Assembly: GCA_903824295.1 (NCBI GenBank)
Contig: CAIJWE010000030.1
Coordinates: forward strand, 124,001 to 188,000
DNA: 64,000 bases
DNA from: an uncultured Chlorobiaceae bacterium
Lineage (GTDB): Bacteria; Bacteroidota; Chlorobiia; Chlorobiales; Chlorobiaceae
Direction of reading: 5' to 3'
Below the pieces are notes generated by a model. The model was given only the letters and a program-made list of their open reading frames with translations, was not told where the DNA came from and searched no databases. This document shows, one piece after another, positions 27,075 to 30,275 of this stretch (position 1 is its first letter; every line of letters starts with the position of its first letter). The position numbers and the translations under genes are program-made.

Positions 27075-27354
27075 CTACTTGGACACAGGGGTCTCTCTCT
27101 CCGGAGTTGTTGTATTTAGTCCAATCATCTATCTCGGCTGTGTAGTGTTGCTCAAAGTTACGCAATCCCGCTACAAAACGGCGGCAGATTACTGGTTCAG
27201 GAATATTATGCCCTCCCTGGCGAACGCGCTACGCTACACGGGCAATGGCCGCTTCGACATTGGGTAACGCCAGAAAATAGAGGCTAACCAAATAGCCTTG
27301 AGCTCGCCGTTGCTGGATATGCATCAAATAACCCAGACCGGATAGGGTAGAAAC
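27075..27354 (-). pseudogene. Zeta-toxin-like ATPase (COG4185) C-terminal remnant
   Basis: Reading minus-strand codons gives STLSGLGYLMHIQ, GYLVSLYFLALPNVEAAIARV, a TAG at 27229-27231, then RVRQGGHNIPEPVICRRF and LRNFEQHYTAEIDDW ending KYNNSG. The GGHNIPE...RRF motif is diagnostic of this family. The TAG stands where homologues have a polar residue such as Gln (CAG to TAG). The Walker A half is gone. Confidence 0.65.
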
Positions 27355-27386
27355 CACGTTTTTTATTGCTCCACCAGCAGATTGCT

Positions 27387-28100
27387 CTGTTGCCTGACGG
27401 TTCCTCGGAGGAGTATCGACCGTTGGACCAACCTTTTCAATTGCTCCAACGGTCGATATAACAAACAGAAAAATTTTTTACCCTACCCAGTACTCATAGC
27501 CGTGAGGCTTTGAAGAATAGGGGCAAAGACCAGCCTTCCCATAATTGGATGACGGCGTACATTGCTCGTTCCCGGAATGCGCAAAAGCCTCTCGCTGCGA
27601 TCGCCTGATTTCACTCAAAGTCCATCTACACATCGAGTCTTGCACAAACCCCTTCGCATGCTGACATAAAATCGAATCAGATTTAAGCCTTTCGACAAGC
27701 AATTTCGCATGATCCTGCGACATAATCAACTCCCGTTAAAGTGAAAAAAGATTAGAATTACCACAAACACACATTAAACTAAAAACGAATAATGAACGTA
27801 TAAAATTTGTTTCATAAAACCATACGTTTTGTATAGAAAAACAGTAACCTTTTTATTTTCCTTGGGCTGAATTTTACCTCACTCTCTCTGTTGCTGATGG
27901 TGTTGCCTCTGATCCAGATTCGTGAGTGCGGCGAGTACCGTTACCGTCATTGTGCGACTTGGTGAAGGGCTCCATGCCATTAAAATCGCCTCCCCGCTGC
28001 TGATTAGTCTTTGTGTTGCCAGGAAGTATTTCAGTCAGAAACAGGTTCACAAACGCATGAAACAGTTGCTCAATCCTCTCTATAAGAAAATAGTCGGCAA
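27387..28100. repeat. Direct repeat, copy 1 (about 0.7 kb)
   Basis: This segment and 28519-29230 share long collinear similarity, offset by about 1.13 kb: CTGTTGCCTGACGGTTCC at the start, a Nif11-like gene, then the proB start region. Mismatches are scattered and the copies have small indels, so the duplication is old. Copy 1 joins the zeta remnant upstream and ends just inside proB. Confidence 0.85.
27478..27723 (-). CDS. Nif11-leader-like small protein, copy 1
   Basis: An 81-residue protein. The N-terminus MSQDHAKLLVERLKSD matches the Nif11 leader family, in which proteins serve as precursors for ribosomally made, modified peptides. The usual GFDCT segment has decayed here to MCRWTLSEIR. 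The C-terminus (CTPSSN...GLCPY...PHGYEYWVG) is nearly identical to copy 2. An ACGGGAGT-like ribosome site precedes the ATG (CGGGAG then about six bases). No GG cleavage site or modification enzyme is nearby. Confidence 0.6.
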   Translation of the reverse strand: MSQDHAKLLVERLKSDSILCQHAKGFVQDSMCRWTLSEIRRSQREAFAHSGNEQCTPSSNYGKAGLCPYSSKPHGYEYWVG

Positions 28101-28131
28101 ATCTTACCATATCCAGAATGCTCTCTCTTGA
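28057..28131 (+). pseudogene. proB 5' fragment (duplicated start)
   Basis: The 24 codons MKQLLNPLYKKIVGK... match the start of the intact proB (MKQLLNPLYKKIVVK) and then diverge to a TGA. It marks the 3' boundary of the duplication, showing that copy 1 was made from the real proB upstream region. Confidence 0.75.
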
Positions 28132-28518
28132 GCGTTCGCGTCTGTTGGGTACCCGTTTTGGAAGCTTTATTCCCCAACAAGATCTCCTGGTATTTAACAG
28201 CATGGTAGACAGGGCGTTCCGGAGCAGAACGCAGGAATACTGTGAGATTATGATTGTGTTGGTACCCCAAAAAAGCCCTCCTCACCTCCGAATACTTTTC
28301 GCATTGATGCCATAATCAGCGATAATCTGAGGCATGTCTGGTTTCTCTTTTACCACTGCAAGCCCAACCTCTAAATGCGGCAATGGTTATGCCTCATCTC
28401 CCCCACCATCAAAGCTTTATAATGACCGCGATAGCCAGCGATGGCTGCATTCTATGAACTTCGGAAAAATGACGTACCAACATGAGCACCTTGTTGAGTA
28501 CATGCGAAATAGCTTTAT
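28101..28518. other. Spacer between the duplicate copies
   Basis: About 420 bases without a convincing gene. Short frames on both strands have neither ribosome sites nor recognisable motifs. It could be debris of whatever separated the copies. Confidence 0.55.
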
Positions 28519-29230
28519 CTGTTGCCTGACGGTTCCCCGGAGGAGTATCGACCTGACCAACCTTTTCTATTGGTCCAACGGTCGATACAACAGACTGGAA
28601 AAACTTTTACCCTACCCAGTACTCATAGCCGTGAGGCTTTGCAAGATAGGGACAAAGACCCTCCTTCCCAAAATTGGATGAAATTGTGCAGTGCTCATTT
28701 TCGCAGTGCATCAAAGCCTCCCACTCCGCCTGCCTGATTTCACTCAAGGTGCAATCAAACCCTGAACTCTGCACAAACCCCCTCACGTACTGACAAAAAG
28801 CCGAGTCCGTTTTAAGCCTTTCGACAAACAACTTCGCTTGCTCCAGTGACATAATCAACTCCCGTTAAAGTAAAAACAAGACCAAAAGCACAACAAAGAC
28901 ACGTCATCACAAAAACGAACAATCTGCGTAAAAAATTAGTTTCATAAAACCACACGTTTTGTATAAAAAAACAGTAAACTTTTTATTTTCCTTGGGCTGA
29001 ATTTTACCTTGCTCTCCATGTCGCTGATGGTGTTGCCTCTGATCCTGATTGGTGAGTGCGGCGAGTACCGTTACCGTCATTGTACGACTTGGTGAAGGGC
29101 TCAATGCCATTAAACTCGCCTCCCCGCTGCTGATTCGTATCTGCGTTTCCGGGGAGTATTTCAGTCAGGAACAGGTTCACAAACGCATGAAACAGTTGCT
29201 CAATCCTCTCTATAAAAAAATTGTCGTTAA
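28519..29230. repeat. Direct repeat, copy 2 (about 0.7 kb)
   Basis: Collinear with 27387-28100. It contains the better-preserved Nif11-like gene and runs into the intact proB. The 28853-29186 stretch between these divergent genes must hold both promoters; an in-frame extension of proB to 29049 exists but is not needed. Confidence 0.85.
28607..28852 (-). CDS. Nif11-leader-like small protein, copy 2
   Basis: An 81-residue protein beginning MSLEQAKLFVERLKTDSAF, followed by SSGFDCTLSEIRQAE: both are Nif11-leader family features (Nif11/TIGR03798 type). The region between them is shorter than usual. The C-terminal third has Cys residues and an aromatic end (ENEHCTISSN, GLCPY, KPHGYEYWVG). The ATG follows GGGAG with six bases spacing; TTG six bases upstream is the alternative. 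It diverges from proB. A precursor peptide or a standalone regulatory protein are both possible. Confidence 0.7.
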   Translation of the reverse strand: MSLEQAKLFVERLKTDSAFCQYVRGFVQSSGFDCTLSEIRQAEWEALMHCENEHCTISSNFGKEGLCPYLAKPHGYEYWVG

Positions 29231-30275
29231 AGTCGGCACCAACGTCATCACCGCCAAAAACGGTGAGCTTGACCTTGCCATTCTTAAGCAGCTCACCACA
29301 CAGATTGCGGAGCTGCAAAAGCAAGGAATTCAGATCATTCTCGTCTCATCCGGTGCTGTCGGTGCCGGACGTTCAGTGGTCAAACTCTCCGGCACCATCG
29401 CGCCTGTTGCGGCCCGGCAGGTGCTTGCCTCAACAGGTCAGATCAAGCTGATCAGCACCTACAATGAGCTTTTTGGAGAGCACGGACTGGTTACCGCCCA
29501 GATACTTGTCACCAAGAGCGATTTCGGCGACCGCCTGCACTACCTCAATATGCAGACCTGCTTCAGCTCCCTCTTGCAGCAGAACATCATCCCTGTTGTC
29601 AATGAAAACGACGCTGTTTCGGTGACCGAGCTGATGTTTACCGACAACGATGAGCTCTCCGGACTTATTGCCTCAATGATGGATGTTGAGGGCTATATCA
29701 TTCTTTCACATGTTGATGGTCTGTTTGACATGAAAACCGGCAACGGTACCATCATTCCGGTTATTGACCCTTCGACCAAACATTTCCACCAGTATATCCA
29801 ACCTGGAAAATCCGAGTTCGGACGAGGAGGAATGCTGACCAAATGCCATATTGCGCAAAAGCTCTCACGCCTCGGCATCACCGTCCATATCGCTAATGGA
29901 CGCACCCCCGGTATTCTTCTCTCAATTCTTGAGGGTGAACAAAACGGGACAAAATTTCTGCCGCAAAAAGCAACCCACGGCCCGAAACGGTGGATTGCCA
30001 ACAGCGAAGGGATGGAAAAGGGGGCGGTCACGGTCAACATGGGCGCTGAAATGGCGCTGGTGGCCGGAGATCGAGCCAACAGCCTGCTGCCAGTCGGTAT
30101 TGAGTCGGTTGCAGGGCCTTTCCTGAAAGGCGATATTATTAAAGTATGTGCCACAGACGGAACCATTATCGGCTACGGCATGGCACAATACAGCTCGGAA
30201 AAAACCCTGGCAATCATGGGACTGAAAGATCAGAAACCCCTGATTCATTACGATTATCTCTATATAACTACCTGA
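29187..30275 (+). CDS. proB: Glutamate 5-kinase
   Basis: First step of proline synthesis: it phosphorylates glutamate using ATP. The amino-acid-kinase domain (residues 12-260) has KIVVKVGTNVIT, ILVSSGAVGAG, PVVNENDAVS and GRGGMLTK; a PUA domain (about 275-355) follows (KGAVTVNMGAEMALV). The product is 362 residues, a normal length, from the ATG at 29187. A longer frame (408 aa from 29049) adds non-homologous residues. proA follows after 12 bases, so the pair is an operon. Confidence 0.95.
   Translation: MKQLLNPLYKKIVVKVGTNVITAKNGELDLAILKQLTTQIAELQKQGIQIILVSSGAVGAGRSVVKLSGTIAPVAARQVLASTGQIKLISTYNELFGEHGLVTAQILVTKSDFGDRLHYLNMQTCFSSLLQQNIIPVVNENDAVSVTELMFTDNDELSGLIASMMDVEGYIILSHVDGLFDMKTGNGTIIPVIDPSTKHFHQYIQPGKSEFGRGGMLTKCHIAQKLSRLGITVHIANGRTPGILLSILEGEQNGTKFLPQKATHGPKRWIANSEGMEKGAVTVNMGAEMALVAGDRANSLLPVGIESVAGPFLKGDIIKVCATDGTIIGYGMAQYSSEKTLAIMGLKDQKPLIHYDYLYITT

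Follow-up and report, generated by a model that had tools for sequence, protein, structure and literature searches.

Two small genes lying upstream of proB in the genome of an uncultured Chlorobiaceae bacterium belong to a Nif11-like family which, judged by sequence, is restricted to one Chlorobium-type genus and in which a short C-terminal peptide is nearly fixed. The family is no canonical RiPP precursor and appears to have left that role. As the best explanation, put forward tentatively, its members may be small proteins outside the RiPP class that dock, through the C-terminal peptide, on one shared putative partner. The two genes lie in a stretch of 64,000 nucleotides (the window; G000:C30:124001-188000), from a source genome (G000) of 2.85 Mb. 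Its relatives with names are entered as uncultured Chlorobiaceae and Chlorobium sp.

Profile and neighborhood work located about 62 member loci in 23 of the 65 genomes of the genus. A DNA pattern for the tail, GYE[x]WxG, gave 42 matches in 98 Chlorobiales genomes, compared with 2 control matches, and all 42 are confined to the one genus (23 genomes). The ~300 other genomes (394 genomes of the phylum in all) gave 10 scattered matches; this number is similar to the control, and an occurrence of the tail outside the genus was set aside as chance. In most members the last residues ahead of the stop are GYE[HYNF]WxG or LPASEHW. The stop follows the motif directly in every distinct ORF read, and the ORFs are intact in the members collected. 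The tail consensus is GYE[HYN]WxG-COOH, with the variants GYEFWAG and LPASEHW, and members with variant tails were reached through leader similarity alone: LPASEHW (15 genomes), GYEFWAG, GYQYWSDNGGMFF, and DKQWQG. All but one of the ORFs have a Nif11-like N-terminus. The exception, in genome G057 (L107:10193-10471), is an ORF of up to 92 aa that ends in GYEHWVG without a recognizable Nif11 domain and sits between an mnmA-like gene and the gene of a [2Fe-2S]-type protein; it is an apparent transfer, seen once, of the tail to an unrelated N-terminus. For the tail Tyr, TAT is used in 42 of the 42 pattern matches, which are related to one another, whereas it makes up 58% of the Tyr codons in these loci.

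In a non-redundant alignment of 23 members, the most conserved blocks are the C-terminal heptapeptide and the first part of the leader. The last seven columns have a mean pairwise identity of 65% and an invariant Trp. M, A6, L13, and D16 are retained in the first third of the leader; beyond this third the leader is poorly conserved, with an identity of about 10-25% in its middle and second half. The tail codons vary synonymously and no DNA is shared beyond the stop codon; selection therefore acts on the peptide. A functional C-terminal peptide, as proposed in an earlier sequence-only reading of this DNA, is thus borne out at the level of the family.

The own genome of the window contains no family member beyond the window pair, which was produced by a segmental duplication (Table 1). 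The sequence-only reading had described a duplication of ~0.7 kb at an offset of 1.13 kb, and direct repeats and pairwise alignment both confirm it. Three direct repeats (D1-D3, 27379-28043 against 28511-29173) are spaced by 1129-1132 bp with identities of 91% (43 nt), 79% (the gene, 300 nt), and 86% (the upstream and proB side, 300 nt), and the pairwise alignment carries the repeat on to ~28097/29226, the first proB codons included. Single-copy orthologues in genomes G055 and G066 lie upstream of proB and divergent from it, as copy 2 does. Both copies have 59 flank positions and 5 tail positions in common when set against these orthologues; because of these site patterns, the duplication of the gene and the proB start is placed after the split from the G055 and G066 lineages. 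A simple tandem duplication does not explain the arrangement in full: the ~0.4 kb filler between the copies (28098-28510) matches neither the interior of proB nor the rest of the duplication and holds no clear gene. It is possibly the remnant of a mobile element. A 253 bp segment at 27096-27348 is repeated with 93% identity on another contig of the same genome (G000:C122:32133-32385).

Table 1. Features of the duplicated region upstream of proB (window coordinates)
Feature	Position	Strand	Description
Copy 1 of duplicated segment	27379..28097	.	3' flank, small gene, intergenic region, truncated proB start
Copy 2 of duplicated segment	28511..29226	.	runs into intact proB
Truncated proB start within copy 1	28057..28131	+	MKQLLNPLYKKIV..., then homology ends, stop
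proB (glutamate 5-kinase)	29187..30275	+	divergent from copy 2; ATG at 29187 is the start of the orthologues
Copy 1 small gene	27478..27723	-	81 aa, intact ORF, decaying Nif11-like domain, tail ...KPHGYEYWVG
Copy 2 small gene	28607..28852	-	81 aa, PF07862 over cut-off, tail ...KPHGYEYWVG
Copy 1 C-terminal peptide	27478..27525	-	codons 67-81 and stop
Copy 2 C-terminal peptide	28607..28654	-	codons 67-81 and stop
Hairpin downstream of copy 1	27414..27458	-	without T-run; RNA fold z = -4.5
Hairpin downstream of copy 2	28545..28589	-	without T-run; RNA fold z = -2.2

Each copy encodes a protein with a Nif11-like N-terminus and the tails are near-identical, just as described before; both ORFs have 81 aa from the ATG or 83 aa from an in-frame TTG upstream, and a Shine-Dalgarno-like GGGAG precedes both genes. 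The copy 2 protein scores 24.3 bits with the Pfam Nif11 profile PF07862 over residues 1-23 (cut-off 23.8) and 29.6 bits with TIGR03798, which is under the cut-off of 32.3; the copy 1 protein matches neither profile. The downstream hairpins have a counterpart 3' of the G066 orthologue (z = -3.2 relative to shuffles). A search for sigma-70 promoters gave no more matches than in shuffles. Upstream of the small genes, a conserved block at 27801-27890, with ATACAAAACGTGTGGTTTTATG on the minus strand, contains an imperfect inverted repeat. The block is present in both copies and in the orthologues, and is a possible operator shared with proB.

The two copies have accumulated changes unequally. Codons 1-66 carry 36 private changes in copy 1 and 5 in copy 2. 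Those of copy 1 affect each of the three codon positions (9, 12, and 15), and therefore its Nif11 domain is under little constraint. The GFDCT motif, reported earlier as decayed in copy 1, reads MCRWT there, and the changes extend across all of codons 1-66. By these substitution patterns copy 1 is a decaying duplicate and copy 2 is the conserved orthologue. The comparison of copy 2 with the G055 and G066 orthologues gives a dN/dS of about 0.12-0.14, which marks a gene under purifying selection.

The sequence-only reading had further concluded from the pair that the tail, not the leader, is selected, and had allowed that tails diverging as much as leaders in other strains would speak against this. 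Over its 48 nt the copy 1 tail carries 2 private changes, a lower rate than in the leader (p=0.014). However, copy-1-specific changes are at the same level in tail and flanks (Fisher p=0.76), and the tails of the two copies differ at 4 of 48 nt with a dS of 0.12, compared with 0.05-0.23 for the non-coding flanks. Since the synonymous sites and the non-coding flanks show the same degree of similarity, the tail similarity within the pair needs no special selection, and selection on the tail as deduced from the window pair alone was rejected. When copy 2 is compared with its orthologues, conservation of the leader equals or exceeds that of the tail (leader dN 0.034-0.038, tail dN 0.089), which at that depth goes against the claim. 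Thus, the claim survives for the family, where the tail is a functional peptide, and fails for the window pair, where the tail behaves as the flanks do. The rate of copy-1-specific change is about threefold higher in the leader (0.18) than in the neutral-looking flanks (0.067; p=1e-5), so recent duplication alone is insufficient as an explanation; the excess suggests either faster decay of the leader or homogenization of the flanks by conversion.

An N11P precursor consists of a conserved leader ending in Gly-Gly and then a variable core, and the genome encodes LanM, YcaO, or a peptidase-ABC transporter nearby or elsewhere (PMC2887384). The family departs from this plan in several ways: i) neither copy and none of the 23 non-redundant members has a Gly-Gly cleavage motif (ELSDEELEAVAGG-like); ii) there is no hypervariable core, the C-terminal heptapeptide being near-fixed instead; iii) LanC was found in 0 of 98 Chlorobiales genomes and YcaO in 0 of the 23 tail genomes, by which a LanM or YcaO RiPP is ruled out; and iv) a canonical C39 peptidase-transporter is present in 5 of the 23 tail genomes and not found in the other 18, compared with 14 of 42 other genomes of the genus, while the own genome of the window has two C39 matches, both weak. 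The genome-wide enzyme search consisted of LanC, YcaO, and C39. The earlier remark that no modification enzyme is present now extends genome-wide for LanC and YcaO (0 of 23 tail genomes each), and the term "core-like", also used then for the tail, is not supported in the RiPP sense. With no cleavage motif, none of the usual enzymes tested, and a near-fixed tail, the product is probably a docking protein rather than a natural-product precursor.

The main rival, which is unlikely, retains the tail as a RiPP core: an enzyme elsewhere in the genome, a radical SAM enzyme or one of another class outside the LanC/YcaO/C39 set (P450, ATP-grasp, or RRE proteins among them), would modify the tail, rich in Tyr, His, and Trp, in every paralogue. 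In most cases a Nif11 leader does belong to a RiPP (PMC2887384), and the prochlorosin genes set a precedent for such an arrangement, being scattered while one promiscuous LanM serves all of the dispersed precursors (PMC10783134). The tail is aromatic, and its predicted disorder (see below) fits a modified core equally well. Such a core would, however, have to be fixed rather than variable and lack a Gly-Gly site, and a CxxxCxxC scan of neighbors within four genes yielded only one helicase-sized protein type and one heterodisulfide-reductase-like protein. Canonical Gly-Gly N11P genes are present in sister genomes of the same genus, and the family, in its architecture and in part of its domain, looks descended from Nif11-leader RiPP precursors.

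The tail could also be a C-terminal export, protease, or adaptor signal (a degron or sorting tag) and not a regulatory docking peptide, which we consider improbable. The strictly C-terminal position and the dispersal of the genes over unrelated contexts agree with such a signal, and its occurrence on the G057 protein makes it portable. But portability is seen in that one case only, a general degradation tag is expected on more types of protein, and in this family the N-terminal domain is conserved as well.

The genomic neighbors bear on a further alternative. A long NotI-family protein is encoded in 15 of 15 genomes with LPASEHW members, each time beside the member, and in 2 of the 50 other genomes (p=7e-13, kinship uncorrected); it carries a NotI domain at its C-terminus (PF12183, 1e-54) and is extended at its N-terminus by a long segment. 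The extension (MFINKDLLEFFGSM...) is seen in L113:10879-12510 and its homologues (L108-L122, 15 genomes), and the LPASEHW small gene is often flanked by two NotI-like genes. The LPASEHW members might act in a restriction or nuclease module of the NotI type, with the family as a whole made up of nuclease or defense accessory subunits, a quite improbable reading: although Type I restriction-like genes also lie near a few non-LPASEHW members, no nuclease adjoins the window pair, and none adjoins most of the other subgroups. The NotI proteins are themselves predicted nucleases, and because the LPASEHW loci are for the most part orthologues of one another, the 15 genomes are not independent. In seven genomes the LPASEHW/NotI pair is close to nifH or glycosyl-hydrolase-like genes (names by reading), and a tail member in G062 (L092:301-585) lies beside nifV-like and nifA-like genes. 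A link of these members to nitrogen-fixation regulation is possible.

Other members adjoin hybrid histidine kinases, CheB/CheR-PAS proteins with a winged-helix partner, an NtrC-type regulator, or response regulators. A histidine kinase lies within two genes in 4 of ~22 contexts against ~0.6 expected (p ~0.004), an approximate and post hoc value, the enrichment having been noticed first and tested afterwards; HATPase_c genes number ~9-15 per genome, G000, G038, and G065 excepted. Two different subgroups adjoin, in differing arrangements, orthologues of a single hybrid kinase (73-74% identity). Neither a kinase nor a nuclease was found beside the window pair or the G055 and G066 orthologues, and several other subgroups also lie among housekeeping genes.

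Very improbable is the notion that these are relic RiPP precursors drifting without function, the tail being kept by recent descent or gene conversion: copy 1 decays at all codon positions with a tail no more constrained than non-coding flanks, and copies have been lost in many genomes, but the low dN/dS of the copy 2 orthologues, the intact ORFs, and the persistence of the tail with varied codons across very diverged leaders weigh against it.

The AlphaFold model has three helices (residues 3-49), with a pLDDT of 75-94 for the leader helices, and a disordered tail with a pLDDT below 55. Foldseek found no fold relatives in the PDB; a sequence search found 9zn4, a Nif11 domain protein, with E=0.002 over residues 1-23. 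A plasmid origin was rejected, there being no match in plasmids, as was a phage origin, for which PHROG matches were weak at best. Of the features of a docking-peptide protein, a conserved short motif and predicted disorder are seen, while the folded-domain partner is putative. The invariant Trp in a tail modeled as disordered, the strict C-terminal position, and the G057 transfer fit a short linear motif.

According to the docking explanation, a folded three-helix Nif11-type domain would be followed by a disordered linker of variable length and the near-fixed peptide. The free C-terminal peptide would serve as a short linear motif for docking to a single conserved putative partner, and the Nif11 domain may provide a second contact specific to each paralogue. 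The proteins might have adaptor or regulatory roles, frequently next to two-component or chemotaxis-like sensors, and the LPASEHW subgroup might take such a role beside the NotI-family nuclease. In the window, the duplication copied the gene and the proB start, after which copy 2 was kept and copy 1 began to decay. More doubtful is the broader proposition of a new regulatory class, in which repurposed Nif11 precursors use one tail to couple sensors, CheB/CheR-PAS proteins, and the NotI-family nuclease to a hub found in a single genus.

Nif11 leaders are generally taken to signal RiPP biosynthesis, an arrangement reversed here by a fixed tail with no Gly-Gly, LanC, or YcaO. If confirmed, the docking explanation would describe a route from a peptide precursor to a regulatory or adaptor protein, caution that a Nif11 annotation by itself does not imply a natural product, and offer a defined heptapeptide as bait for the partner.

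The family has in common with the N11P proteins (TIGR03798; PF07862), including prochlorosins, an N-terminal helical Nif11 domain, a short disordered C-terminus, and many dispersed paralogues per genome. It differs from N11P in having no Gly-Gly and in its diverged leader and fixed C-terminus, which is the reverse of N11P; its genomes are without LanC, YcaO, and mostly C39, and copy 2 falls under the TIGR03798 cut-off. The Azotobacter nif cluster also includes a Nif11 domain protein. In Bradyrhizobium, nif11 has an RpoN box (PMC13207237). Some Chlorobium members resemble these diazotroph proteins in combining a Nif11 domain with a link to nitrogen-fixation regulation, being near nifH or nifV/nifA, but most, including those of the window, are far from nif genes. 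The "Group F" Nif11 peptides of marine Synechococcus and Prochlorococcus have an N-terminal MALDQL and a C-terminal GEYH/N, and their function is unknown (PMC10783134). Compared by that paper's description alone, they too are Nif11 peptides that combine the lack of the usual Gly-Gly with a conserved C-terminal peptide. The tail sequence and the phylum are different, and "Group F" is the nearest described parallel to the Chlorobium family.
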